NCBI RefSeq assembly: GCF_000520515.1
Contig: NZ_KI914752.1
Location: 64,806 to 97,739 of the forward strand
Source of the DNA: Arthrobacter sp. H20
GTDB taxonomy: Bacteria > Actinomycetota > Actinomycetes > Actinomycetales > Micrococcaceae
DNA: 32,934 bases
Direction: 5' to 3'
The notes under the pieces are model-generated. The model ran no database searches. It had not been told where the DNA came from and saw nothing but the letters and a program-made list of their open reading frames with translations. Within the stretch, counting starts at the first letter, position 1, and every line of letters begins with the position of its first letter. A program made the translations under genes and the position numbers. This document shows positions 6,931 to 21,098 of this stretch, piece by piece.

Positions 6931-6994
6931 TTGACGTGAGACATGGATCACGCAATTATCATTCCACTACGGATGAACAATAATGCTCATTCCA
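6931..6994 (+). promoter_or_regulatory. Candidate promoter and paired TCATTCCA repeats ahead of the ABC transporter
   Basis: TTGACG (6931-6936) and AATTAT (6954-6959) are spaced 17 nt, a fair sigma-70-like promoter. Just downstream the octamer TCATTCCA occurs twice (6959-6966 and 6987-6994), 28 bp apart and so close to the same face of the helix. Between them lies ATGAACAATAATGCTCAT, which has ATGA/TCAT ends. Repeats overlapping the start region look like repressor half-sites. The mRNA leader would be about 105 nt. Confidence 0.4.
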
Positions 6995-7074
6995 AGCGCA
7001 ATACCGTCAACTTGTTGCAAGTATTCCTGTGCCAGCTGGAGCAGCTGCACCACCTTTGGGAAAACGAGGAAACC

Positions 7075-8322
7075 ATGAAGAAATCCATCCGGACCGGATT
7101 TGTCGTAAGTGTTGCGGCGGCCGGTCTTTTGCTCACCTCCTGCGGCTTTGGCGGCGGAGAATCCGGCGGAGACGCAGAGGGCGGCACCACTCTCGACCTC
7201 CTGGTCCCCAGCTATTCCGACGGCAGCAAGGCGCTCTGGGAAGGCGTCATCGAAGAGTTCGAGGCGGCCAACGAGGGCATTACCGTCAACCTTCAGGTCG
7301 AGTCATGGGAAAACCTTGAGTCGGTGCTGAACACCCAGATCCAGGCCGGCGAGGCACCCGACATCTACAACGGCGGCGCGTTCTCCGCCTTCGCTACCGA
7401 GGGCCTGCTGTACTCGGCCGAGGAAATCGCCTCCCCGGAGACTCTCAGCGACTTCCAGGAATCCTTCGCAGCCAACGAACAGGTGGCCGGCACCCAGTAT
7501 GCCCTGCCGCTGCTTGCCTCGGCGCGCGCCCTGTTCTACAACGAGGACCTGTTTCAGGAAGCCGGCGTTGACGGCGCTCCCACCACCTGGGACGAGCTGT
7601 ACGACGCAGCCGAAGCGATCACCGAGACCGGTACTCCCGGCTACGGTATGCCGCTCGGATCGGAGGAGGCCCAGGGCGAGGCCCTCATCTGGATGGCCGG
7701 CAACGGCGGCGGGTTTGGTGACGCTGAGGAGATCACCGTCAACACCCCCGAGAACCTTGAGGCAGCCGAGTTCATGAAGCGCATGATCGACGATGGGCTG
7801 ACCCAGGCCGACCCCGGTGCCACCCAGCGCACTCCGATGATCAACGTGTTCATCCAGGGGCAGATCGGCATGGTCTATGGCTTGCCGCAGACCGTCGGCC
7901 AGATCGAAGCTGAGAACCCTGACCTGAACTACGGTCTGGCGAACATCCCAACGGCGTCGGGCGAACCCGCCACCCTGGGTGTTGCCGACCGCCTGATGTC
8001 GTTCAAGAACGACGGCGATAAGGCCGAGGCTGTCACAGCGTTCATGGACCACTTCTTCGCCCCGGAGAACTACGTCGAATGGGTCAGCACCGAGGGTTTC
8101 CTGCCCACCACCATCAGCGGTGCAGAGCAGATGTCGGGCGACGAGACCTTGGCGCCGTTCCTGGAGATGCTGCCAAGCGCCCAGTTCTATCCCACCTCCA
8201 ACCCGGCCTGGAACGCCACCGATGGTGCGTTCAAGAGCCTGTTTGGCCAGCTTGGGCAAGGAATGGAACCAGCCGAGGTGCTCGCCCAGATCCAAGCCGA
8301 AGCTGACGCAGCGGCCGAGTAG
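7075..8322 (+). CDS. ABC sugar transporter, extracellular substrate-binding lipoprotein
   Basis: This 415-residue solute-binding protein of the MalE/UgpB cluster (extracellular solute-binding family 1) captures sugar outside the membrane. It has a lipoprotein signal: MKKSIRTGF, a hydrophobic stretch and the lipobox LLTSC with Cys23, then a Gly/Glu-rich linker. Family-1 features include EFEAANEGITVNLQVESWEN, QIQAGEAPDIYNGG, ARALFYNEDLFQEAGVD, PTTWDELYDAAEAI and the C-terminal SNPAWNATDGAFKSL. The chosen ATG has GAGGA at 7066-7070 and begins exactly at the signal peptide. The same frame is open upstream from 6943, but that part is not secretory and has no ribosome site. It is first gene of the importer operon, divergent from the catabolic operon, and probably induced with it. 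Confidence 0.95.
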   Translation: MKKSIRTGFVVSVAAAGLLLTSCGFGGGESGGDAEGGTTLDLLVPSYSDGSKALWEGVIEEFEAANEGITVNLQVESWENLESVLNTQIQAGEAPDIYNGGAFSAFATEGLLYSAEEIASPETLSDFQESFAANEQVAGTQYALPLLASARALFYNEDLFQEAGVDGAPTTWDELYDAAEAITETGTPGYGMPLGSEEAQGEALIWMAGNGGGFGDAEEITVNTPENLEAAEFMKRMIDDGLTQADPGATQRTPMINVFIQGQIGMVYGLPQTVGQIEAENPDLNYGLANIPTASGEPATLGVADRLMSFKNDGDKAEAVTAFMDHFFAPENYVEWVSTEGFLPTTISGAEQMSGDETLAPFLEMLPSAQFYPTSNPAWNATDGAFKSLFGQLGQGMEPAEVLAQIQAEADAAAE

Positions 8323-8328
8323 CCTACA

Positions 8329-8361
8329 GCCAGTACCGGCGTGGTCCGCGCCGGTACTGGC
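8329..8361 (+). promoter_or_regulatory. Intercistronic hairpin after the binding-protein gene
   Basis: GCCAGTACCGGCG (8329-8341) and CGCCGGTACTGGC (8349-8361) form a perfect 13-bp stem with a 7-nt loop, starting 6 nt after the stop codon. There is no T-run, so it is more likely an mRNA 3'-end protector or partial attenuator than a full terminator. Such a hairpin would give more binding protein than permease, as known for malE/malF-type operons. Confidence 0.7.
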
Positions 8362-8397
8362 CCCTAACCATTGGCGGTAGAGAATGAGCTATTTACG

Positions 8398-9333
8398 ATG
8401 AGCGCACAGCCTGTACTGGCCGGCCCGCCCGCGTCCCACGGACGAAAGCGCCGCAGACAAAACTCCGACGGTCTCCCTGCCGCCCTCCCCTGGATCGGCC
8501 CGGTCCTCCTCCTGATCTTTGCGATCGTGATCTTCCCCGCCGGGTTCATGATCTTCAACTCCACCCGGGACATCAGCCAGAGCGGCATCGACCAGGGCAC
8601 CGCGGGGTTCGTTAACTTCGCCGAGGTGTTCTCCGACCCCAACCTCCCGCGGGTGCTACTGAACACAGTGGTCTGGGTCGTCGTCGTCGTGTCGCTGACA
8701 GTGCTCATTTCCCTGGTATTGGCCCAGTTCCTCAACAAACCCTTTCCCGGCCGCACCCTGGTCAGGATGGCGGTGGTGGTCCCCTGGGCTGCGAGCGTGG
8801 TCATGACCACCACGGTGTTCTACTACGGTCTCGATAGCAACTACGGGATCATGAACACGTTCCTCGTCGATATTGGCATCCTCGACTCGCCGTATGGCTT
8901 CACTAAGAACGTGTTTCCAGCGCTCGGGGTGGCCATCATCGTCGCGGTGTTTGTGTCCATCCCGTTCACCGCCTACACCCTCTTGGCTGGGTTGCAGTCA
9001 GTCCCTGAGGACGCGCTCGAAGCCGCCAAGATGGACGGTGCGGGCCCGTTCCGCACCTACTTCAGCATCGTGCTACCCCAGCTTCGTGGAGCCCTCGCCG
9101 TCGCGGTGCTGATCAATATCATCAACGTGTTCAATAACTTGCCGATTCTCAGAATTATCACTGGATCGATCCCCGGCTATCAGGCCGACACCCTCATGAC
9201 CTACATCTTCAAGGTGCTGCAGTTTGACCGACGGGTGGACCTTGCCAGTGCCCTCAGCGTGGTCAACTTCGCCATCGTCATTGTGATCGTTGCGGCGTAC
9301 GTGAAAATCGTCAAGCCGATGAAGGAGGCCTAG
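8398..9333 (+). CDS. ABC sugar transporter permease 1 (MalF-type)
   Basis: This 311-residue inner-membrane permease has six predicted transmembrane segments, beginning with ALPWIGPVLLLIFAIVIFPA. The cytoplasmic EAA loop that docks the ATPase is EAAKMDGAGPFRTYFSIVLP. A basic cytoplasmic head (GRKRRRQ) precedes the first helix. It would pair with the following permease to form the channel of a CUT1-type importer for di/oligosaccharides or amino sugars. The chosen ATG lies 37 nt after the hairpin; ribosome-binding signals are weak there (GAGAATGAG about 10 nt upstream). A TTG at 8371 extends the frame by nine residues and is less attractive. It ends 2 nt before the next gene. Confidence 0.93.
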   Translation: MSAQPVLAGPPASHGRKRRRQNSDGLPAALPWIGPVLLLIFAIVIFPAGFMIFNSTRDISQSGIDQGTAGFVNFAEVFSDPNLPRVLLNTVVWVVVVVSLTVLISLVLAQFLNKPFPGRTLVRMAVVVPWAASVVMTTTVFYYGLDSNYGIMNTFLVDIGILDSPYGFTKNVFPALGVAIIVAVFVSIPFTAYTLLAGLQSVPEDALEAAKMDGAGPFRTYFSIVLPQLRGALAVAVLINIINVFNNLPILRIITGSIPGYQADTLMTYIFKVLQFDRRVDLASALSVVNFAIVIVIVAAYVKIVKPMKEA

Positions 9334-9335
9334 GC

Positions 9336-10250
9336 ATGTCCACCACCACCCTCAATGATTCGGAACGCTCAGCACTGCCCCCGGTAAAAACACGTCAAAA
9401 ACGGTACGGCGCCGATCAGGTTTCCGGGCGCAGGATGGGCCTGCGGATGGCTATCGGCGCCGTCGTAGCCCTGGTGTTCCTGCTGCCCTACGCCATCATG
9501 CTGGTGGGCTCGCTGAAGACTCGGTCAGAAATCCTCGCTGTGCCGCCCGCGTACTTCCCCACAGAGGGCCTGCAGTGGAGCAACTATGCGACCATGTGGG
9601 AGACCCCTGAGACGCCGCTGCCCTACAACCTGATCTCGACGATCATCATCGCGGTTTTCGCAACCCTTCTGGTGCTTTTGGTAGCGACCCCGGCGGCTTA
9701 CTACACGGCCAGGTTCCGGTTCCCTGGAAAGACTGTGTTCCTGTTCCTTGTCATTGTGACGCAGATGCTGCAACCGGCGGTCCTGACCGCCGGCCTGTTC
9801 AGGGAGATGCTGCTGCTGGGCATCAACGACACCTGGCTGGCGATGATCCTGATCAATGCAGCGTTCAACCTGTCCTTCGCCCTGTGGATCATGCATAGTT
9901 TCTTCGCCGCGATCCCGAAGGAGATTGACGAGGCCGCCCAGCTCGATGGCGCCGGCAAGCTCACGGTGATGTTCCGGGTGAACCTGCCGCTGGTCTGGCC
10001 CGGCATCGTGACAGCAGTCATCTTCACGTTCGTGTCGTCGTGGAACGAGTTTGCGGCGTCGCTGGTGATCATGTCGACGGCGGAGAACCAGCCCCTGTCC
10101 GTGGCCCTGACCAAGTTCATCGGACAGTATGCAACCTCGTGGCAGTACGTGTTTGGCATCTCAATTGTCGCGATCATTCCGGTCATTATTCTGTTCGCGC
10201 TGATCGAGAAGCGCCTGATCGGTGGCCTCACAGCCGGCGCCGTGAAGTAG
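9336..10250 (+). CDS. ABC sugar transporter permease 2 (MalG-type)
   Basis: This 304-residue permease has six predicted membrane helices. A basic N-terminal tail precedes MAIGAVVALVFLLPYAIMLV, and a long periplasmic loop contains VPPAYFPTEGLQWSNYATMW. The EAA motif is EAAQLDGAGKLTVMFRVNLP and the C-terminus is ALIEKRLIGGLTAGAVK, the standard ending of CUT1 MalG-like permeases. A strong AAGGAGG lies 6 nt before the ATG, inside the end of the upstream gene, so translation is coupled. No ATP-binding subunit follows. Actinobacterial CUT1 importers commonly share one MsiK/UgpC-type ATPase encoded elsewhere, and I infer that here. The operon ends at this gene, 29 nt from a convergent VOC gene. Confidence 0.94.
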   Translation: MSTTTLNDSERSALPPVKTRQKRYGADQVSGRRMGLRMAIGAVVALVFLLPYAIMLVGSLKTRSEILAVPPAYFPTEGLQWSNYATMWETPETPLPYNLISTIIIAVFATLLVLLVATPAAYYTARFRFPGKTVFLFLVIVTQMLQPAVLTAGLFREMLLLGINDTWLAMILINAAFNLSFALWIMHSFFAAIPKEIDEAAQLDGAGKLTVMFRVNLPLVWPGIVTAVIFTFVSSWNEFAASLVIMSTAENQPLSVALTKFIGQYATSWQYVFGISIVAIIPVIILFALIEKRLIGGLTAGAVK

Positions 10251-10750: not shown

Positions 10751-11986
10751 TCACTTCTCCCCCAGCCCGGTGCTGACGCCCTGTTTCCAGACCGCGTAGG
10801 TCAGCGGGATACCGGGCCGGTACGCCAGATGGGTCGCGGACGGGGCGTTCAGCAACTGCAGGTCAGCCCGATGCCCGACGGCGAGGGAGCCGACCGCACG
10901 GGCGCCGTCGTCGTCGGTCCCTGCCTCCCGGTGCAGGGCGAGTGCACCACCGAAGGTGGCGGCGCGGATGGCCTCCTGCACGCTGAGCCCCATCTGCAGG
11001 ACTGCTGTCGTCACGCAGTAGGCCATCGATGTGGTGTAGGACGTGCCGGGGTTGCAGTTGGAGGCCAGGGCAATCTTGACGCCGGCGTCGAGCAGTTTGC
11101 GGCCGGGCGCCAGCGGCTGGCGGGTGGACAGGTCGCAGGCGGGCAGACAGGTCGCCACCGTTCCGCGGGTGCCTGAAGTCCCGCGGTCGCCCGCGCCGTC
11201 ATCCCACCCGGACCAGGTTCCGGCGAGGGCATCAATGTCAGCTGCATCAAGATAGTTCACATGGTCCACGCTGGCCGCGCCGAACTCGACGGCGAGCTGC
11301 ACTCCCTCACCGTGGCCCAGTTGGTTTCCATGGACCCGGAGCCCCAGCCCGGCGTCCCGGCACGCGCCCAGGATCTCGCGGGACTGCTCAGCGGTGAAAG
11401 CGCCACGCTCGCAGAACACGTCAGCGAAGCTGACGTAGGGTCTGACGGCATCGAGCATTGGCCCGCAGACCAGGCGCACATAGTCGTCCGGGGCCATCCC
11501 GGCAGGGATGAGATGGGCGCCGAGATACGTCACTTCGTCGACGGCGCCGGCCGCGATGCGCGCGCTGCGGCCCTCGTGCTCGACGTCGAGCCCATACCCG
11601 GTCTTGGTCTCAAGATAGGTAGTGCCGCCCGCATTGGCCTCGGCGACCCGGCCCAGGAGCAGCCGGGTGAGATCGTAGTCGGAGGCGGCGCGGGTAGCCT
11701 CAGTGGTGACAGCGATCCCGCCCGCTGCATAGTCCTCGCCCGCCATCCGTGCCTCGAACTCGGCGGTGCGGTCCCCGGCGAAAACGAGATGGGTGTGACT
11801 GTCCACCCAGCCCGGAAGACCGGCCCGCCCCTGAGCATCGATCATTTCATCAGCAGCGGGGGCGTCCGACGCTGAACCGATCCAGCTGATCCGCTCCCCC
11901 TCGAAGACCACCGCTGCATTCTTCAGGACGGCGTGGTCGCTGTCCTGGGTTGATAATTCACCGATGTTCGTAATCAACTTGCTCAT
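10751..11986 (-). CDS. hutI: Imidazolonepropionase
   Basis: HutI hydrolyses 4-imidazolone-5-propionate to N-formimino-L-glutamate, the third step of histidine breakdown. The 411-residue amidohydrolase shows GWVDSHTHLVFAGDR (metal His64 and His66), KTGYGLDVEHE, RVHGNQLGHGEG (His219), SVDHVNYLD (His242) and ALASNCNPGTSYTTS. In that last motif most HutI proteins have Asp (SDxNPGS) as metal ligand and base; here the codon at 11057-11059 reads Asn310. There is also a Gly/Asp/Thr-rich insertion at about residues 257-276 not expected in this loop. Identity is secure, but these changes make activity worth testing. The ATG overlaps the hutF stop by 4 bp, with GAGGGGG upstream. It is the last gene of the hut operon. 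Confidence 0.94.
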   Translation of the reverse strand: MSKLITNIGELSTQDSDHAVLKNAAVVFEGERISWIGSASDAPAADEMIDAQGRAGLPGWVDSHTHLVFAGDRTAEFEARMAGEDYAAGGIAVTTEATRAASDYDLTRLLLGRVAEANAGGTTYLETKTGYGLDVEHEGRSARIAAGAVDEVTYLGAHLIPAGMAPDDYVRLVCGPMLDAVRPYVSFADVFCERGAFTAEQSREILGACRDAGLGLRVHGNQLGHGEGVQLAVEFGAASVDHVNYLDAADIDALAGTWSGWDDGAGDRGTSGTRGTVATCLPACDLSTRQPLAPGRKLLDAGVKIALASNCNPGTSYTTSMAYCVTTAVLQMGLSVQEAIRAATFGGALALHREAGTDDDGARAVGSLAVGHRADLQLLNAPSATHLAYRPGIPLTYAVWKQGVSTGLGEK

Positions 11987-13332
11987 GAGTCCCCCTCCAT
12001 TGTGCTGGCCAGCAGGGCGGCCGGATCACCGAGGATGAGGTGGTATCCGTCGCGCGCCACCAGACGACCGGCGATGACGACGGCGGTCACGTCCGCCGCA
12101 GTGGCGGTGAGGGGTAGCTGGGCGGCGGTGGATCCAGCGGTGCGGACCGATGTTGGGTTCACGCTGACCAGGTCGCAGGGGCTGCCCACGCTGAGGGCAG
12201 CCACCGGGGTGGCCATGGAGCGGGCGGCACCGGTGGTCGCAGCGTCGAGCAGGTCTGCCGGGGTAAAGCGTCCGCGCTGGCCTGAGCCCAACCGTTCCCC
12301 GTGTTCGAGAGCCCGCATTTCCAGCCACGGGTCAATCACCGCGTGCTGATCGGTACCCAGCGCAATCCGGGTGCCAGCGTCGCGCAGTGCCCGGGCAGGT
12401 CCGATCCCGTCGGCGAGATCGGCCTCGGTGGTGGGGCACAGGACTGCTGTAGTGCCGGCCCGGCCCAGCAGGGCAATGTCCTCAGGGGTGAGGTGGGTGG
12501 CGTGCACTACGCTCAGCCGGTCGGTGAGGAGCCCGTATCGATGGAGCAGACCTGTCGGCGTGGTGCCGTAGTGCTCCAGACAGTCGGCGTTTTCGGCTGG
12601 TTGTTCCGACAGGTGGACGTGGAGGGGAACATCGGTGGGGAGGCCTGCGGCGAGGGTCCGGAGCGCGTCTTCGGGGACGGCGCGGACCGAATGCAGGGCC
12701 GCGCCGACAGTGACGAATGCGGGGTCAAACTGTGTGGCGACAGTCCCCCGGAGGGAAGTGAACCGCTCAAGCCAGGCGCCGGCGTCGGGGTCCCCGAACC
12801 GTTCCTGGTCCGGGACCAGCCGCTGGCCGATGCCGCCGGCGAGGTAACAGGTGTCCAGCAGGGTGAGACGGATTCCGGCAGTGACCGCCGCACGGCACAG
12901 GGCGAGCTCCATTGCGTGCTGCCCGTCGTCGTCGGGCCCGTACGGTGTACCACCGACCTGGTGGTGGACGTAGTGGAACTCGGCGACGCTGGACCATCCG
13001 GTGACCACCATCTCGGCGAATACCGCAGTGGCGAGGCGTTCGTAACCGGCCGGGGTCAGTTGCCCGGCGGCCCGGTACATTTCCCTGCGCCACACCCAGA
13101 AGTCGCCGCCGCCGTCGTGGGTCCGGCCCCGGAGCATCCGGTGGAAGGCGTGCGAATGGGCGTTGGCAGCGGCCGGGAACACCACTCCGGTCAGGTCCCT
13201 GCTGTCGCCCTGTGCTGCATCAACGTCGGCTGTGAGGGCGGTTATCGTACCGGCGTCACCGATCTCGATGCGCACCCGGGACCGGATGCCCTGTCCCGCG
13301 ACCCAGGCCTGCTCACACCAAAACGTGCTCAC
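11983..13332 (-). CDS. hutF: Formimidoylglutamate deiminase
   Basis: HutF removes ammonia from N-formimino-L-glutamate, giving N-formyl-L-glutamate. The 449-residue amidohydrolase carries NAHSHAFHRMLRGRTHDGGG (metal His-x-His), FWVWRREMYRAA (substrate loop typical of HutF), HYVHHQVGG, PLHVHLSEQPAEN (metal His), VVHATHLTPED (His) and ALGTDQHAVIDPWLEMRALE (catalytic Asp). All expected metal ligands are present. Translation begins at a GTG that overlaps the stop of the M20 gene by 4 bp. Its presence shows the locus uses the two-step route through formylglutamate, which needs a formylglutamate amidohydrolase, and makes the M20 neighbour interesting. Confidence 0.95.
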   Translation of the reverse strand: MSTFWCEQAWVAGQGIRSRVRIEIGDAGTITALTADVDAAQGDSRDLTGVVFPAAANAHSHAFHRMLRGRTHDGGGDFWVWRREMYRAAGQLTPAGYERLATAVFAEMVVTGWSSVAEFHYVHHQVGGTPYGPDDDGQHAMELALCRAAVTAGIRLTLLDTCYLAGGIGQRLVPDQERFGDPDAGAWLERFTSLRGTVATQFDPAFVTVGAALHSVRAVPEDALRTLAAGLPTDVPLHVHLSEQPAENADCLEHYGTTPTGLLHRYGLLTDRLSVVHATHLTPEDIALLGRAGTTAVLCPTTEADLADGIGPARALRDAGTRIALGTDQHAVIDPWLEMRALEHGERLGSGQRGRFTPADLLDAATTGAARSMATPVAALSVGSPCDLVSVNPTSVRTAGSTAAQLPLTATAADVTAVVIAGRLVARDGYHLILGDPAALLASTMEGDS

Positions 13333-14555
13333 AGCAAGTCTTCCAACACGTCGGCGAGCGCCGTTGACGCCAGATCCGCGTCGGAGCGTTCAACGAACTC
13401 CTCCGGCGAGTGGCTGATGCCGGTCGGATTGCGGATGTAGACCATGCCCGAGGGAACGTAGCCGGCCAGCACCCCGGCGTCGTGCCCAGCACCGGTGGGA
13501 AGGGTGGGCACCGGGAGGTTGCCGTTCGACTGGCTGAGGGAGTTTTGCAGCTGGCGTTGCAGGGTCGAGTCGAACTGGACAGTACTGCTGAAGGATTCCT
13601 CGGTCAGGGTCACTGAACACCCTTCGAACGCTGCGGCTTTCTGCGCCTGGCCGTGGATTGACTCAACGAGTGCCGCGGTTACCGAGTTGTCGGGGTGGCG
13701 GACGTCCAGCCACAGGTCGACGCGCGATGCGATGACGTTGGTGCCGCCTGGCACGGGCTGCAGGCGTCCTACAGTGGCACGGGCATCATCCTGACCTTCC
13801 GCAACTCTGCGGATGGCCAGCACAATCTGCGCGGCGACGATCATCGGGTCGGCGCGGTGGGCCATCAGGGTGGTACCGGCATGGTTGCCCTGGCCCTCTA
13901 CGCTCAACCGCCAGCGTCCGTGCCCGAGGATTGATGAGCCGACGCCGACTGGCGCATCCAGGTCGATTAGCGCCCTCCCCTGTTCGACGTGGAGTTCGAC
14001 GAAGTCGCCGATGGTCCGCAGTGCTTCCTCGTCCCGCCCGAGATGTGCTGGGTCCAGTCCGTTCGCTCGGCTGACGTCGGCGAAGGTGTTACCGGCCGGG
14101 TCTTTGAGGTTCCGCACCCGGTCGGCGTCGATAGCGCCGGTGAGCAGCCGTGACCCGAGGCAGGCGATCCCGAACCGGGAACCTTCCTCCTCGGGGAACA
14201 CAGCTACGGCAAGACCGCGGCGAGGTTCAACCCCGCGTTCCTTCAGCTCGTCGACGGCGGCCAGCGCCGCTGCAACGCCGAGTGGACCATCGAACGCCCC
14301 ACCACCTGGTACCGAGTCGAGGTGGCTTCCCGTGACGAGAGCTCCGGTCCGGTTCCCCGACGCGGTATCCCACCAGCCCCACATGATGCCGTTGCGGTCG
14401 GTGCTGACCTCAAGCCCGCGTTTCGAGGCTTCGGCAGTGAACCATTCGCGGAGCTCCAGCTCCGGGGTAGAGAACACTTGCCGTGAATAACCTCCCCGGG
14501 CAGAATCCCGTCCGACGTCGGAAATCGATTCCAGCAGATGACTTACGGTGTTCAT
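13329..14555 (-). CDS. M20-family amidohydrolase (allantoate amidohydrolase / N-carbamoylase type), candidate N-formylglutamate hydrolase
   Basis: This 408-residue zinc hydrolase has the N-carbamoyl-L-amino-acid hydrolase/allantoate amidohydrolase layout. The dinuclear metal site is visible: GSHLDSVPGGGAFDGPLGV (His78, Asp89), VFPEEEGSRFG (catalytic and ligand Glu), FVELHVEQGRALID (His189), and the late HDAG and NPTGISHSPEEF (His). The dimerisation/lid domain includes GQGNHAGTTLMAHRADP. The family hydrolyses ureido or N-acyl amino-acid amides. It sits inside the hut operon between hutU and hutF, while no HutG-type deformylase is found, so I infer that it hydrolyses N-formylglutamate to glutamate and formate. 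Automatic annotation would probably call it AllC. ATG 14555 has GGAGAG upstream. The gap to hutU is 81 bp without another gene. Confidence 0.88.
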   Translation of the reverse strand: MNTVSHLLESISDVGRDSARGGYSRQVFSTPELELREWFTAEASKRGLEVSTDRNGIMWGWWDTASGNRTGALVTGSHLDSVPGGGAFDGPLGVAAALAAVDELKERGVEPRRGLAVAVFPEEEGSRFGIACLGSRLLTGAIDADRVRNLKDPAGNTFADVSRANGLDPAHLGRDEEALRTIGDFVELHVEQGRALIDLDAPVGVGSSILGHGRWRLSVEGQGNHAGTTLMAHRADPMIVAAQIVLAIRRVAEGQDDARATVGRLQPVPGGTNVIASRVDLWLDVRHPDNSVTAALVESIHGQAQKAAAFEGCSVTLTEESFSSTVQFDSTLQRQLQNSLSQSNGNLPVPTLPTGAGHDAGVLAGYVPSGMVYIRNPTGISHSPEEFVERSDADLASTALADVLEDLL

Positions 14556-14636: not shown

Positions 14637-16331
14637 CTACTCCTCCATGGGGATGCGCACGCCGCGTTCCGCAGCGACGTCGGCTGCACGCTCGTAGCCG
14701 GCGTCAACGTGACGGATGACGCCCATCCCCGGGTCGTTGGTGAGCGCTCGCTCCAGCTTCTCGGCTGCGAGCACCGTGCCGTCAGCAACCGAGACTTGCC
14801 CGGCGTGGATGGACCGGCCAATACCGACGCCGCCACCATGGTGGATGGACACCCAGGTGGCACCCGAGGAGGTATTGAGGAGGGCGTTGAGCAACGGCCA
14901 GTCGGCCACGGCGTCGGACCCATCGGCCATCGCCTCGGTCTCCCGGTACGGCGACGCGACCGATCCGGAGTCCAGATGGTCGCGCCCGATCACTATCGGG
15001 GCTGACACCTTGCCCTCGGCTACCAACTGGTTGAACATGAGACCAGCCTTGGCACGATCCCCATACCCGAGCCAGCAGATTCGTGCGGGAAGACCCTCGA
15101 ACTCCACCAGGTCGCCTGCCGCGTCAAGCCAGCGGTGCAGGTGCTCATTCTCGGGGAATAGCTCCTTCAGCGCTGCATCGGTGACGGCAATGTCGGCCGG
15201 ATCACCCGAGAGGGCCACCCAGCGGAACGGGCCCATGCCCTCGCAGAACAGCGGCCGGATATAGGCGGGGACAAAGCCGGGAAATTCGAAGGCCCGGGCA
15301 TATCCGCCCTGACGGGCTTCGTCACGGATTGAGTTGCCGTAGTCGAAAACCTCGGCACCGGCGTCCTGGAAGCCCACCATGGCCTCCACGTGATGAGCCA
15401 TCGAGGTCTGTGCCTTTTTGGTAAACCCGTCAGGATCGCCCTTCGCCTCCCGATCCCATTCCTCGACCGAGACGCCCTCGGGCAGGTAGCTCAGCGGATC
15501 GTGCGCCGACGTCTGGTCGGTCACGATATCGATGGTGAGTTGCCCAGCGAGATGGCGGCGCAGCAGTTCGGGGAAGATCTCCGCTGCGTTCCCGACGACG
15601 CCGACAGACAGTGCCCGCTTGTCTTCCTTGGCGGCCAGCACCTGGCGCAGGCCATCCTCAAGATCGGTGGCGACGACGTCGAGGTAACGTTTGGCTGCGC
15701 GGCGCTCCAGCCGGGAACGGTCGACGTCGACAATCAGCACTGCACCACCATTCAGCGTGACGGCGAGCGGTTGGGCACCTCCCATGCCACCGCACCCGGC
15801 GGTCAGGGTCAGCGTTCCGGCCAAGGATGCAGTGGCTGAGTTGTTGAGTTTGCGGGCGATCGCGGCGAACGTCTCGTAGGTGCCCTGCAGGATCCCCTGC
15901 GTGCCGATGTAAATCCACGACCCGGCAGTCATCTGCCCGTACATCATCAGGCCCTCGGCTTCGAGCTTCCGGAATTCTGGCCACGTGGCCCAATCACCCA
16001 CCAGATTGGAGTTGGCTAGGAGCACCCGGGGCGCCCACGTGTGGGTGCGGAAGATGCCTACGGGCTTCCCCGACTGCACGAGCAGCGTCTCGTCGTCCTC
16101 GAGGTCCTCGAGCGAGCGGACGATGGCGTCGTAGGCTTCCCAGCTGCGCGCGGCACGGCCGGTGCCGCCGTACACCACCAGGTCTTCGGGGCGTTCAGCG
16201 ACCTCGGGGTCGAGGTTGTTCATGAGCATCCGCAGCGGCGCCTCCGTCTGCCAACTCTTGGCGGTGAGGGTGGTGCCGCGAGCGGCACGGATGGATCGGG
16301 TGGGGTCGTGCTGGGTGAATGAAGTGCTCAT
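14637..16331 (-). CDS. hutU: Urocanate hydratase
   Basis: HutU hydrates urocanate to imidazolonepropionate using tightly bound NAD+. The 564-residue protein is full length and strongly conserved. It has [40 protein letters not shown]-like [49 protein letters not shown] (NAD site), [20 protein letters not shown] (active-site region), and [20 protein letters not shown] near the C-terminus. The ATG overlaps the stop of the IclR regulator by 4 bp, so regulator and enzyme are co-translated. The product feeds HutI, encoded two genes downstream. Confidence 0.97.
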
Positions 16332-17020
16332 GCTGATTCTCCAATGGTCGTGATGTTCCCCTGGGTGGTGTGTGTCTGATCGGTGGTGGTGTTGAGGATG
16401 CCGAGGGCTTCGGTGGAGACCAGTTGGCCCAGGGTTTCAGCCTGGCTCTCACTGATGCGATAGCTTGGCACCACAACGCTCAGCGAGGCAGCAATGCGGT
16501 CCCCAATCATGACCGGAGCTGCAACAGCCGTGACATCGGGTTCAATGCCGTTGCGGACCACCACGTAACCGCAGGCGGGTGCCTCACCCACGAGCACCCT
16601 GCCGGCGGCTGTGCCGCTCAGGGGAATACGGCGACCCACCCAGCTGGTGTGCCTGACTGAGTGAGTGCCCTCGCGGACAGCTAGGTAGATGCCGTAGCCG
16701 TCGTCGGCGGGAACGTTGAGGTAGGCGGACTCCCCTGTCTCGCCCACCAGACGGTCCAAAGCGGCGCCTGCCAGCGAAACCAGCGACTCATGGCTGAGTG
16801 CCTGGGCACCGAGTTGGACGATCCGCATCCCGGGTCGGTAGCCGTCGTCGTCCTTGCGGACGAAACCGGTGGCTTCGAGGGTACGCAGCAGGCGCAGGGC
16901 GGTGGAGGCCGACAGGGATGCGTCGCGGGCGGCGTCGGCCAGACTGACGGATCCCCTGTCACACACGGCACCGAGCAGGAGCAAAGCGCGTTCAACGGTG
17001 CGGGTCGATGCGTCAGCCAT
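16328..17020 (-). CDS. IclR-family regulator, probable histidine-utilisation repressor
   Basis: This 230-residue protein has an N-terminal winged helix ([13 protein letters not shown], then [20 protein letters not shown] and [14 protein letters not shown]) and a C-terminal IclR effector domain ([57 protein letters not shown]). I chose ATG 17020 because GAAGGAG lies 9 nt upstream and the helix-turn-helix begins soon after. The frame stays open to 17074, but that would place the start inside the operator region. It is first gene of the hutU-M20-hutF-hutI operon and divergent from hutH, so it very probably regulates both and itself. Urocanate is the usual hut inducer, but the ligand here is unproven. 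Confidence 0.92.
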
Positions 17021-17041
17021 TCGAGCGTCTCCTTCAGCTGT

Positions 17042-17110
17042 GAGTCTTGCATTGAAGGACATAATGCATTTCACTTATTGAAACGCTCTTTTCATTCATT
17101 GGCAAGACTC
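17042..17110. promoter_or_regulatory. Symmetrical operator/promoter region between the IclR regulator and hutH
   Basis: The 69-bp intergenic core is bounded by perfect inverted 9-mers: GAGTCTTGC (17042-17050) and GCAAGACTC (17102-17110). Inside them are TTTCA (17069-17073), TGAAA (17079-17083) and TTTCA (17090-17094), an alternating half-site series with 5- and 6-nt spacers, plus ATTGAA near each outer arm. IclR proteins bind inverted repeats of this general kind. Possible promoters inside are TTGCCA/TTCAAT at 17-nt spacing for the regulator (minus) and TTGAAG/TATTGA at 18-nt spacing for hutH (plus), both weak matches. Binding here could control both directions. Confidence 0.62.
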
Positions 17111-17130
17111 TTGTGAAAGCAGGTCCTCAG

Positions 17131-18708
17131 GTGGGCAGCACTCGAACCGTCACCGTGGGCGTCGGCGCCCTCACACCCGACGACGTTGTTGCAGTGGCAC
17201 GGTGCGGCGCCACGGTGACCATCCGCCAGGAATCAGTCGTCGCGATGAAGGCCTCCCGGCAGGTGATCGAGGACCTGGTGAACGATCCGATGCCCCACTA
17301 CGGCGTCTCCACAGGCTTTGGTGCGCTGGCAACGACTCATATCCCGGTGGCGCAACGCACCCAGCTGCAACGGAGCCTGATCCGCAGCCACGCTGCCTCG
17401 TCGGGTGCCGAAGTGGACCGTGAGGTGGTTCGAGGGTTGATGCTCGGCCGGCTGTCGACAATGGCCACCGGCCGCACAGGCGTCCGCCCCCTGGTAGCCC
17501 AGACCTACGCCGACCTCCTCAACGCGGGCGTTACGCCCATCATCGGCGAGTACGGTTCGCTGGGCTGCTCGGGCGATCTGGCGCCACTGTCACACATCGC
17601 GCTCGCGTTGATGGGTGAGGGTGACGTGCGCGACGGCGACGGCGTCCTCATGCCCGCCGGTGAGGCGCTGGCCGCCGCTGGCATCACCCCGGTGGAGCTC
17701 CGTGAGAAGGAGGGGCTCGCACTGATCAACGGCACCGACGGCATCCTCGGCATGCTGATCCTGGCCTCGGCGGATCTGCACCGTCTACTGCTGACCGCTG
17801 ACCTCTCCGCCGCCATGAGCGTTGAGGGACTGCTCGGCACTGACAGTGTTTTCGCCGCAGACATCCACGCACTCCGCCCGCATCCGGGCCAAATCTCCTC
17901 GGCGGCGAACATCCGCCGTCTGCTCGACGGATCACCGCTGATCCAGCAGCACTCAGCCAGCGAACTCAGTGAACACCGCAGCACTCGGGTACAGGACGCC
18001 TATTCCCTGAGGTGTGCCCCCCAGGTCCATGGGGCAGCGCGGTCCACGCTCACCTACGTGGAGTCTGTCGCAGCAATCGAGCTGGGGTCAGCCATCGACA
18101 ACCCCGTGGTGACCATCGACGGCCGGGTGGAGTCCAACGGCAATTTCCACGGCGCCCCGGTGGGCTACGCGCTGGACTTCCTGGCCATCGCCGTCGCCGA
18201 CGTAGCGTCAATGAGTGAGCGCCGCACCGACCGTTTCCTTGACAAGGCCCGCAGCCACGGCCTCAACCCCTTCCTGGCCCACGACCCGGGAGTCGATTCG
18301 GGTCACATGATCGCCCAGTACACGCAGGCGGGGATCGTGTCCGAGCTTAAGCGGCTTGCGAATCCCGCATCGGTGGATTCCATCCCGTCCTCGGCGATGC
18401 AGGAGGACCACGTCTCCATGGGCTGGTCGGCAGGTCTTAAGCTTCGGCGCGCGCTGGACGGGCTGACCCGCGTGCTGGCCATCGAAGTCCTGACCGCCGC
18501 CCGGGCACTTGACATGCGCGACGGCGGTCTGGCCACCTCACGCAGCGCGGCCCCCCTCCGCGCGGTGCGGGAGGTAGTCCGGACGGTAGTGGACGGCCCG
18601 GGCGCCGACCGCTACCTGGCGCCAGAAATTGAGGCCGTGCGGGTGCTCGTTGACAACGGATCGCTCCTGACCGCGGCGCAGGACGCGCTGGGCGACGAAC
18701 TGGACTAG
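17131..18708 (+). CDS. hutH: Histidine ammonia-lyase
   Basis: HutH removes ammonia from L-histidine to give urocanate, the entry step of the pathway. The protein (525 residues from this start) has YGVSTGFGALATTHI, RTGVRPLVAQ, EYGSLGCSGDLAPLSHIALA, VQDAYSLRCAPQVHGAAR and NPASVDSIPSSAMQEDHVSM, all conserved in the MIO lyase family. The MIO prosthetic group would form from Cys146-Ser147-Gly148 instead of the common Ala-Ser-Gly; a Cys version is known from actinobacterial enzymes. Two GTG starts are possible. GTG 17113 sits 3 nt after the operator arm without a ribosome site, whereas GTG 17131 follows GAAAGCAGG and gives an N-terminus (MGSTRTVTVG) that fits the family better. It is divergent from the rest of the hut operon. 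Confidence 0.95.
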   Translation: MGSTRTVTVGVGALTPDDVVAVARCGATVTIRQESVVAMKASRQVIEDLVNDPMPHYGVSTGFGALATTHIPVAQRTQLQRSLIRSHAASSGAEVDREVVRGLMLGRLSTMATGRTGVRPLVAQTYADLLNAGVTPIIGEYGSLGCSGDLAPLSHIALALMGEGDVRDGDGVLMPAGEALAAAGITPVELREKEGLALINGTDGILGMLILASADLHRLLLTADLSAAMSVEGLLGTDSVFAADIHALRPHPGQISSAANIRRLLDGSPLIQQHSASELSEHRSTRVQDAYSLRCAPQVHGAARSTLTYVESVAAIELGSAIDNPVVTIDGRVESNGNFHGAPVGYALDFLAIAVADVASMSERRTDRFLDKARSHGLNPFLAHDPGVDSGHMIAQYTQAGIVSELKRLANPASVDSIPSSAMQEDHVSMGWSAGLKLRRALDGLTRVLAIEVLTAARALDMRDGGLATSRSAAPLRAVREVVRTVVDGPGADRYLAPEIEAVRVLVDNGSLLTAAQDALGDELD

Positions 18709-18715
18709 GGATCGG

Positions 18716-19447
18716 CTATCGTGTGGTCCGGCGGCTGCCGCCGTGCCAATCTTCCTGCACCCCTGCCTCCTCGGCCGGGACTCCCAGTGCGGGAAGCTGG
18801 GGACGTTCTCTGAGGCTGCGCTTCAGCTCGGCGAACCCCGCGAAGCCGGCCAACCCGACTACGTGGTCCCATAACTGCACTGCCTCCCCGTCGCTGGGGA
18901 GCCTGCTGATAACCGGACCGAAGAACGCCACCCCGGTTGGCGGTTCGAAATGGATGATCGGGGTGCCAACATCCCTGCCGGTGAGGGCCAATGCCTCATC
19001 GCTTTCCGACTGGATGACCTCATCGAGTGCCGGGTCATCCAGGGCAGCGGTCAGTTCGGCGGGCAGTCCCGCGCTGGCGAGAATCAGTTCAGCAAAGTCA
19101 CGGGTGCCGCGGCGGTCCAGCGCAGGATCACCGTCGTCCGCAACCGGTGCCGATTCGAAGATGTGCTCACCGCACGCTGCATAAAACGCTCCCACAGCCG
19201 CTGGCCCGTGCTCGGCGCGGATGCGGGCGGCAACCCTCAGCAACCGCAATCCCGCGGTATGCCCGGCCTCGTATTCCGGCGGGAAGTGCGAGGCATAGTC
19301 AATGTGCGAGTTGATCAGCCGGAGCGAGATGAATCTCCACTCCACCGCGTAGTTCCGCTGTCCCATCACCTGGCGGACCCACTTACTGGTCATCCAGGCG
19401 AAGGGGCAGACGGGGTCAAAATAGAAGTTGATGTCGGCGTCGCTCAC
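18716..19447 (-). CDS. DsbA-family protein of the mycothiol-dependent nitroreductase (Rv2466c) type
   Basis: This 243-residue thioredoxin-fold protein has a helical insertion and no signal peptide, so it is cytoplasmic. It opens INFYFDPVCPFAWMTSKWVR, very like Mycobacterium Rv2466c-type proteins (FDPxCPWxW), and has VGTPIIHFEPP with the cis-proline typical of DsbA/FrnE proteins. The second cysteine of the CxxC site is replaced by Ala (Cys14-Pro-Phe-Ala17), so a classical dithiol exchange is not possible. A mycothiol-dependent monothiol mechanism is an inference from the family. It is convergent with hutH (7 nt apart) and stands alone. The C-terminus is Arg/Gly-rich and not conserved in my reading. 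Confidence 0.85.
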   Translation of the reverse strand: MSDADINFYFDPVCPFAWMTSKWVRQVMGQRNYAVEWRFISLRLINSHIDYASHFPPEYEAGHTAGLRLLRVAARIRAEHGPAAVGAFYAACGEHIFESAPVADDGDPALDRRGTRDFAELILASAGLPAELTAALDDPALDEVIQSESDEALALTGRDVGTPIIHFEPPTGVAFFGPVISRLPSDGEAVQLWDHVVGLAGFAGFAELKRSLRERPQLPALGVPAEEAGVQEDWHGGSRRTTR

Positions 19448-19540
19448 ATCCCAACGCTAAATCGCCTCAGCACCCGGGTCAACCGTCAGGTCTTCCAGCG
19501 CACCGTGTGCCGATGCTCCGGGGTCAGCTCCGTGCTGCAC

Positions 19541-20086
19541 TTACCAGCGGTGGGCTACATCGATAACCAGCCTGGAGGCAGTGCCTGGACCGTCAAGGGT
19601 GAACACCCTGAAGGGCAGGCGTGCCCGGACGCCAACCCCAAAGGTTGACTGGCCCTCGAAGCTGCCGGCAGAAGCCAGTTGACGGAAGGTGGTGTACCCG
19701 GCGAGGTTGACCAGTTCCTTGGGGTTGGCAGGATTGTAGGTGGCGTTGCCGAACCTGTCGTAGCTCGGAGCCTTCACAATCACCAGGAGGAAGGCGCCGC
19801 CGCGGAGCGGAATTATCTGGCCTGATTCGTCGGCCCTGACCGCGCTGACGTACTCCACCCGGTAGCCGGCCCCCTTCCCGCGAATGTCGACGACCATCCG
19901 GTCGAAGCAGGGATGTTCCCCTGCCCGCACGTTTGTCACCGGAGCGCTCGTCATGGACGAGTTGACCTTAACCAGAGATCCCCACGTTATCCCGCAATAC
20001 GGCGCCGCTGCGGCGGAGCCTGGGACTACCAGTCCCAGGCCAAGCACCAGCAAGAATGCTGCCAGCAGCGCCCCTATCTTTTTCAT
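19541..20086 (-). CDS. Secreted AMIN-like domain protein
   Basis: This 181-residue exported protein has a Sec signal peptide: MKKIGALLAAFLLVLGLGLV, then a PGSAAAA cleavage region just before PYCGITWGS. The mature part resembles the AMIN-like domain found in secreted actinobacterial proteins: NVRAGEHPCFDRMVVDIRG, GYRVEYV, and the C-terminal TFGVGVRARLPFRVFTLDGP and SRLVIDVAHRW. The two cysteines (PYC and HPCFD) could form a disulfide. Function is unknown; AMIN-type domains often bind cell-wall polymers. The second of two adjacent ATGs is chosen because GAGGGG lies 6 nt before it, and ATG 20089 is the alternative. It is divergent from the siderophore-interacting protein gene. Confidence 0.82.
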   Translation of the reverse strand: MKKIGALLAAFLLVLGLGLVVPGSAAAAPYCGITWGSLVKVNSSMTSAPVTNVRAGEHPCFDRMVVDIRGKGAGYRVEYVSAVRADESGQIIPLRGGAFLLVIVKAPSYDRFGNATYNPANPKELVNLAGYTTFRQLASAGSFEGQSTFGVGVRARLPFRVFTLDGPGTASRLVIDVAHRW

Positions 20087-20273
20087 CATGCACCCCTCAA
20101 GGGTTGTGGAATTGATAGGTACATGATGTTGCGGCTCGAGGTCTAAGAATCTGGTCAAACCAACTCTGGAGCCGAACCGTTACTGGCCTTAACGCGATAC
20201 TCCGGTGAAGGGAGATGATGACTCACCGCGCACGTTGCTAGCCTTGGATATTCCAGCCAAAGGAGAACAACTC

Positions 20274-21098
20274 ATGAGTGTTACCCCCGTCCGGAAGCCC
20301 AAGCCGCAGACCATTTTGACCGTTCAGAGCACCAAGTGGATCACCCCGGCCATGGTGCGGGTGGTGGCTGGCGGTGACGGCTTCAATGCGTTCGGCAGCA
20401 ATAACTTTACTGACCGGTACGTGAAGATCCACTTCGCTAAACCAGAACTGGGGCTGGTGCCGCCCTACAACCATGAGGCGCTCCGCGAGACCCTCGACCC
20501 CGCCGACCTCCCAGTGACCAGGACCTACACCCTGCGCTGGGTCGACTACCCCGCGCAGCGTCTGGCCATTGACTTCGTCGTGCATGGCGACGAAGGCCTC
20601 GCCGGACCGTGGGCTGCCTCCGCGCAACCGGGCGACACCCTGGTGGTGACGGGTCCCGGCGGCGGGTACACACCTGACGAGAGCGCCGACTGGCACCTGT
20701 TCGCCGCGGACGAATCGGCACTGCCTGCGGTGGCTTCGGCTCTTGAAGCGCTCGACGACGACGCCGTTGGGCTGGCTGTCCTGGAGGTGGAAACCGAATC
20801 GGACCGCCACGATCTGGTCGCTCCGCCTGGTGTTGAACTCGTGTGGTTGTACCGTCGCGGGGGCTCCGCGGGGACCCTGCTCGCCACCGCCGTTCAGCAG
20901 GCTCAATGGCGCAACGGCCGGGTGCAGGTCTTTGCCCACGGTGAACGGGAGGCGATGAAGCGGCTCCGCGACGTCTTCTTCACGGAGCGCGGTCTGGAGC
21001 GCGCTCAGGTGTCACTCTCCGGCTATTGGGCCCAGGGTCGCACCGAGGACCGCTTTCAGGCCGAAAAGAAGGAGCCCGTCGGGAAAATCCTCGACTAG
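20274..21098 (+). CDS. Siderophore-interacting protein (FAD ferric-siderophore reductase type)
   Basis: This 274-residue cytoplasmic flavoprotein of the ViuB/YqjH family releases iron from ferric siderophores by reduction. The FAD-binding domain contains TRTYTLRWV (the RxYTxR FAD motif, Arg83 to Arg88) and the family signature DFVVHGDEGLAGPWAASAQP with GPGGGY. The C-terminal NAD(P)H-binding SIP domain has HLFAADESALPAVASALEAL and ends SGYWAQGRTEDRFQAEK, the expected Tyr-Trp and Gly-Arg-Thr-Glu pattern. ATG 20274 is preceded by AAAGGAG at good spacing; the open frame upstream is ignored. No siderophore transporter or synthesis gene is nearby. The divergent leader shows only a poor match to an iron-regulator box. 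Confidence 0.93.
   Translation: MSVTPVRKPKPQTILTVQSTKWITPAMVRVVAGGDGFNAFGSNNFTDRYVKIHFAKPELGLVPPYNHEALRETLDPADLPVTRTYTLRWVDYPAQRLAIDFVVHGDEGLAGPWAASAQPGDTLVVTGPGGGYTPDESADWHLFAADESALPAVASALEALDDDAVGLAVLEVETESDRHDLVAPPGVELVWLYRRGGSAGTLLATAVQQAQWRNGRVQVFAHGEREAMKRLRDVFFTERGLERAQVSLSGYWAQGRTEDRFQAEKKEPVGKILD

Follow-up and report, generated by a model that had tools for sequence, protein, structure and literature searches.

A proposed N-formyl-L-glutamate hydrolase of the M20 family in the histidine-utilization operon of Arthrobacter sp. H20

Results

The window analyzed here is a stretch of 32,934 nucleotides from Arthrobacter sp. H20 (contig NZ_KI914752.1, positions 64,806 to 97,739 of the forward strand), and it carries a histidine-utilization (hut) locus with an M20-family amidohydrolase gene between hutU and hutF. 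The minus-strand block is compact, in the order IclR-type regulator, hutU, M20, hutF and hutI: adjacent genes overlap by 4 bases at IclR/hutU, M20/hutF and hutF/hutI, and 81 bases separate hutU from the M20 gene. The initial annotation, made from the sequence alone, placed an M20 gene here together with HutH, HutU, HutI and HutF, and both points hold: the open reading frame (ORF) is intact, encoding 408 residues without an internal stop, and all four Hut proteins are matched by profiles, HutI slightly under its cut-off and HutF under that of TIGR02022 (Table 1). The best PDB match of HutF is 3mdu, an N-formimino-L-glutamate iminohydrolase (E 2.2e-66), and as this is its closest solved relative, the pathway is expected to deliver N-formylglutamate.

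The absence of HutG/NfoD, which the same annotation had pointed out, extends to the whole genome, a draft of 3.44 Mb in 88 contigs that is 94.57% complete. Profile searches of this genome gave no match to PF05013 (FGase, with a Caulobacter positive control matched), none to TIGR01227 (HutG) at E 1e-60 and none to PF02971 (FTCD), so that with HutH, HutU, HutI and HutF present the genome falls in the HutF branch. A HutG encoded elsewhere, which had been named as a reason to give up the proposal, was thus not found; the sole arginase-family protein (agmatinase-like, L001) was considered as a hidden HutG and rejected, as it scores above both agmatinase cut-offs and below the HutG cut-off.

The top NCBIfam model of the M20 protein, NF006770 (cut-off 372 bits), is named allantoate amidohydrolase. 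The protein also passes TIGR01879 (297 bits, cut-off 204), which places it among the hydantoinase/carbamoylase-type M20 enzymes, and Pfam reports Peptidase_M20 with a weaker M28 match and no PF05013. It lies below the ErtE model NF058540 (299 bits, cut-off 520) and far below the AllC equivalog TIGR03176 (210.1 bits, cut-off 597.75), and identity with AllC was rejected on this score.

The closest solved relative is the N-carbamoyl-L-amino acid hydrolase of PDB entry 3n5f, which we take to be the L-carbamoylase of Geobacillus stearothermophilus. Alignment with 3n5f and AllC shows that the metal and catalytic residues of the family are intact (H78, D89, E123, E124, H189 and H382) and that Q192, H225, N273 and R286 are also in place; these ten residues are present in 81 of 81 aligned members of the clade to which the protein belongs. 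Four further residues, W61, H212, W282 and N376, mark this clade: they occur in all 81 members and are absent from five other M20 proteins, six distant M20 proteins of family f16 (described below), 3n5f and AllC. Support for the clade in the tree is 0.715, with few outgroups. Two split matches (G013 and G028:C140) were left out of the alignments, and G028:C43 was included as L021.

According to a passage of PMC7431475, a racemase/L-carbamoylase tandem with the G. stearothermophilus enzyme recognized N-formyl substrates more efficiently than N-carbamoyl ones, so formyl removal lies within the known chemistry of the family. For a related N-carbamoyl-beta-alanine amidohydrolase, the ligand residues given in passages of PMC10952681 are Glu131, His385, Arg291 (carboxylate) and Gln196; we take R286 and Q192 as the counterparts of Arg291 and Gln196, by family position rather than by direct alignment.

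To follow the gene across the phylum, a single draw of 197 actinobacterial genomes was used for six families. The M20 clade was defined as matches over the NF006770 cut-off, among two score groups of at least 508 bits (full-length or frame-summed) and at most 328.8 bits, and it is found in 25 genomes. HutF was matched at E 1e-60 or better in 50 genomes and counted in 44, six weak TIGR02022 matches (209-256 bits; G108, G166, G189, G001, G032 and G150) being dropped. HutF is present in all 25 M20 genomes (Fisher p = 4.7e-20, relatedness ignored); the distance between HutF and a clade copy is at most 260 bases in 24 of them and ~1.3 kb in G009. An extra copy, G028:C43, has no hut gene within the 14 kb fetched around it. 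The other families number 75 genomes for HutU, 59 for FTCD, 16 for PF05013 and 1 for HutG, the last being G008 from the window's own family, with HutU and HutG and with neither HutF nor the M20 clade.

The 44 HutF genomes divide into 26 with the M20 clade (the 25 plus G124, where the gene is cut by a contig end), five with a peptide deformylase (PDF)-family ORF, five with a distant M20 protein and eight in which none of these was found at the hut locus. At least two of these eight are cut by a contig end there, and no candidate deformylase was found among the part of the neighbor genes scanned in L045-L047, L049 and L050. The distant M20 proteins are found in the hut operon of family f16 (L052, L053, L054, L057, L058 and L059) and are 27.7-33.9% identical to the window protein; they perhaps represent an independent recruitment. 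In a sixth f16 genome, G164, the contig with the distant M20 gene ends before hutF would be visible.

The statement of the initial annotation that a similar gene sits beside hut genes in other Actinobacteria is borne out at many loci. These include two records from a plasmid collection in which the M20 gene adjoins hutF, from Arthrobacter sp. StoSoilB13 (L163) and Nonomuraea gerenzanensis (L164); the latter record is chromosome-sized (11.85 Mb). The StoSoilB13 protein is the closest named relative found (68%). Ten actinobacterial PF05013 proteins were used as queries against the loci, a search by which a very distant HutG could be missed, and FGase was found in none of 20 phylum hut loci, 24 M20 loci, 60 family loci, the window, L163 and L164. 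The only matches were in the four loci fetched for FGase itself (L143-L146), where no hut gene was found within ~6 kb of the PF05013 gene.

A draw of 120 genomes from the window's family contains 49 with the M20 clade, 65 with HutG and 11 with both, compared with ~26.5 expected under independence (Fisher two-sided p = 9.0e-9, relatedness ignored). All six genomes of the window's genus, counting the window's own, have M20, and none of the six has HutG. The M20 and HutG routes to glutamate therefore exclude each other largely, although not strictly. Of the pattern that the initial annotation proposed to look for in actinobacterial loci, co-occurrence with HutF is seen in all 25 M20 genomes of the phylum draw, and absence of HutG is partial in the family.

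The PDF-family ORFs occupy the hut operon in five HutF genomes (G088, G139, G178, G094 and G154), none of which has the M20 clade; G088 additionally has a PF05013 protein elsewhere. Their NF001159 scores of 143.8-157.7 bits exceed the cut-off of 125, and the motifs GAGxAAxQ, EGCLS and HExDHLDG are conserved in them. Relatives were collected by a scan of GTDB genomes with an alignment of the hut PDFs, and the best 80 of 444 were taken (loci L063-L142, with L063 and L072 apparently duplicating the assemblies of L042 and L044). Contigs limit the neighbor counts, as 38 of these loci are at least 14 kb long and 10 are under 8 kb. Among the 80, 45 have a hut gene within 8 kb, and in 44 the PDF gene is directly followed by HutF on the same strand, with hutU-PDF-hutF-hutI as the prevailing order; M20, HutG and FGase were found near none of the 80. 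In each of the eight hut-PDF genomes checked, the PDF of the hut locus is accompanied by a second one elsewhere. These observations suggest that the PDF-family member probably performs the same step as the M20 protein, and in our view a gene from a formyl-removing family in the place of M20 is the best single argument that the slot is for deformylation.

The other 35 relatives have no hut gene within 8 kb and come from Myxococcota, Deltaproteobacteria and similar groups. A general role of such PDFs in histidine use was rejected, as a HutF match was present in no more than 12 of the 20 genomes checked that carry non-hut relatives, 11 of these 12 matches falling under the TIGR02022 cut-off. The stretch RYPYKP-IPLT was likewise rejected as a hut-specific mark, since the 35 non-hut relatives conserve it just as strictly and the peptide deformylase of PDB entry 1sv2 has a similar insertion. 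A PhyH-type dioxygenase-like ORF stands between hutU and the PDF gene in L048 (4053-4937, Pfam PhyH) and in L051 (7946-8800, a weak ectoine-hydroxylase match).

Within the window's family, 55 copies of the M20 clade were fetched. HutF lies within 126 bases in 44, and 11 have no hut gene in ~7 kb (L174, L177, L193, L203, L185, L197, L201, L202 and L204-L206). These 11 do not form a separate clade in the tree, and their active-site residues and clade marks are the same as in the hut copies. In nine of the 11, the gene immediately upstream, on the same strand and 48-180 bases away, encodes an FAD amine oxidase; L203, which also has oxidative N-demethylase genes, has one nearby on the opposite strand, and L185 has none. 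Four loci (L174, L177, L193 and L203) also encode homologues of a type III glutamine synthetase and of a class II amidotransferase as well as a protein with a Glu_synthase domain, and all 11 have an ammonium-transporter-family match within ~7 kb. None of these neighbors was found at the 44 hut copies, the window, L163 or L164, except for one transporter match in L164.

Three of the 44 hut copies (L182-L184) belong to a divergent, complete hut operon that carries hutF and M20, and all three genomes also have HutG. In L182 (959-8209) the proteins are 40% (HutH), 45% (HutU), 37% (HutI) and 42% (HutF) identical to those of the window, and the M20 gene comes last. HutU, HutI, HutF and M20 are over their cut-offs there, and HutH is over NF006871 and under TIGR01225. 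The operon is followed, on the opposite strand, by genes for a HisC-like aminotransferase and a binding protein for polar amino acids.

In the window, the genes beyond hutI (6943-10250) encode a sugar-type ABC binding protein (6943-8322) and a permease (9336-10250), and the other side (18716-21098) encodes a mycothiol-dependent nitroreductase-like protein and a siderophore-interacting protein.

Table 1 Genes of the hut locus in the window and PDF-family ORFs in hut operons of other loci
Feature	Position	Strand	Evidence or context
M20-family amidohydrolase, proposed N-formyl-L-glutamate hydrolase	13329..14555	-	NF006770 601 bits; Peptidase_M20; conserved residues
hutF, formimidoylglutamate deiminase	11983..13332	-	NF006681 532.7 bits (cut-off 362); TIGR02022 396.6 bits (under cut-off 413.05)
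hutI, imidazolonepropionase	10751..11986	-	TIGR01224 290.1 bits (slightly under cut-off 298.15)
hutU, urocanate hydratase	14637..16331	-	TIGR01228 887.3 bits (cut-off 375)
IclR-type regulator	16328..17074	-	IclR_C and HTH_IclR; 4-base overlap with hutU
hutH, histidine ammonia-lyase, divergent	17113..18708	+	TIGR01225 623.3 bits (cut-off 539.15)
hut PDF-family ORF	L042:7007-7582		between hutU and hutF
hut PDF-family ORF	L043:9144-9719		between hutF and hutI
hut PDF-family ORF	L044:8759-9334		between hutU and hutF
hut PDF-family ORF	L048:4937-5518		between hutU and hutF
hut PDF-family ORF	L051:8803-9384		between hutU and hutF

Discussion

The gene order, the family, the intact residues, the co-occurrence with HutF, the exclusion of HutG and the replacement by a PDF-family gene in the same slot together suggest that the M20 protein is probably a metal-dependent N-formyl-L-glutamate amidohydrolase. 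HutF would convert formiminoglutamate to N-formylglutamate, and the M20 enzyme would hydrolyze this to L-glutamate and formate as the last step of the HutH-HutU-HutI-HutF route. By analogy with the two-metal mechanism of M20 relatives, a metal-bound water would act with E123 as the general base, and R286 and N273 would hold the alpha-carboxylate, roles assigned after those in the family and in PMC10952681.

The hypothesis itself is not new. An alternative form of N-formylglutamate deformylase was predicted for COG0624 in the SEED subsystem "Experimental - Histidine Degradation" (Table 3, case 20, of PMC3223725, published in 2011). According to passages of that paper, a test of a Streptomyces avermitilis protein detected no deformylase activity, and the prediction is among those that its authors invalidated. 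We consider this published negative the strongest evidence against a deformylase role; the passages name neither a locus tag nor a metal and do not state how the assay was run, so the negative may or may not be general. Several of our own counts weigh on the same side: an FTCD match, which implies a different route for formiminoglutamate, in three of the 25 M20 genomes; a PF05013 protein elsewhere in nine of the 25, including six of the seven in family f4; the eight HutF genomes of 44 without a candidate at the hut locus; HutG in 11 of the 49 M20 genomes of the window's family; and 11 of 55 copies in that family outside hut loci. The role put forward by the initial annotation stands as the best-supported one, on comparative evidence that goes beyond what the sequence alone could show. 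We believe that the new comparative evidence makes the older negative assay worth repeating.

The negative assay would also agree with cleavage of another N-substituted glutamate, such as N-carbamoyl-L-glutamate from oxidized imidazolonepropionate (hydantoin propionate). This would be a repair or side activity, and N-formylglutamate would be handled elsewhere. ErtE, an N-carbamyl-L-glutamate amidohydrolase, is indeed a relative of the M20 protein at the score given above. However, the M20 protein is paired with HutF, whose expected product is N-formylglutamate, and is replaced by a gene of a deformylase family; a carbamoylase role would not predict the exclusion of HutG, and none of the ten window proteins scanned passes a hydantoinase cut-off, a search that did not cover the rest of the genome. 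We regard this alternative as unlikely. It is less probable still that deformylation in Streptomyces-like genomes is really due to the unlinked PF05013 protein, with M20 having another role in histidine use. Its frequency in M20 genomes, especially in f4, would favor this, but PF05013 was not found in 16 of the 25, the window's included, and the ten of the 16 PF05013 proteins that were scored (over matched stretches of ~220 residues only) remain at 30-84 bits, far below the cut-off of 278.75 of the HutG deformylase model; in the four loci fetched, no hut gene was found near PF05013. Allantoate amidohydrolase activity, kept in the hut operon for nitrogen economy, is very improbable despite the name of the NF006770 model, given the low AllC score, four clade marks of which none is shared with E. 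coli AllC, the mostly hut-linked positions of NF006770 members in Actinomycetota, and no allantoinase over cut-off among the same ten window proteins, the rest of the genome again not being searched for one.

Returning to N-formyl-L-glutamate hydrolysis, the non-hut copies may be read in the same terms. Both contexts have in common a glutamate with a one-carbon substituent on its nitrogen, which fits N-formylglutamate as the substrate, and the amine oxidase of the second context would make this compound. Tentatively, and with somewhat more doubt than confidence, we propose that N-formyl-L-glutamate hydrolysis arose at least three times in unrelated families (FGase, a carbamoylase-like M20 enzyme and a PDF paralogue acting on a free formyl amino acid), and that M20 serves a second pathway, in which an amine oxidase acting on methylamine-derived N-methylglutamate would give N-formylglutamate and then glutamate and formate.

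The literature searches found nothing that joins formylglutamate, Streptomyces and histidine with allantoate amidohydrolase, and, in the PubMed Central open-licence set, nothing that links peptide deformylase with formylglutamate. As far as they show, the PDF-family replacement in the slot, the family-level exclusion of HutG and the N-methylglutamate-like second context are new. If the deformylase role is correct, the last step of histidine breakdown would be closed in many Actinomycetota, and the family name "allantoate amidohydrolase" in automatic annotation would be corrected. The operon slot would also be a clear example of one reaction carried out by unrelated enzymes, and the hut-linked peptide deformylases a new use of a much-studied drug-target family.

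One of the closest known systems is the SEED prediction for COG0624, with the same proposed activity and pathway and an M20-type protein of Streptomyces that probably belongs to this family (no locus tag is named); it differs in being listed as invalidated, and the slot replacement, HutG exclusion and second context do not appear in the passages of PMC3223725. HutG/NfoD (PF05013, TIGR02017) has the same predicted reaction and the same place after HutF, and its family is unrelated to M20. The cassette at four of the 11 non-hut loci resembles the gamma-glutamylmethylamide synthetase and MgsA-C (N-methylglutamate synthase) cluster, which passages of PMC5023230 describe in some Gram-positive methylotrophs and note in Mycobacterium genomes.

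ErtE, which ends the ergothioneine pathway, is also an M20 enzyme named for an N-substituted glutamate; the window protein falls far under its cut-off, and a HutF-type deiminase adjoins it. A member of the peptide deformylase family (PF01327) takes the same hutU-X-hutF slot in other Actinomycetota; this family and its fold are unrelated to M20. The L-N-carbamoylase (3n5f) and AllC (1z2l) belong to the same M20 subfamily and share the metal and catalytic residues of the window protein, whereas the hut-type clade has invariant residues of its own and is found mostly in hut operons.

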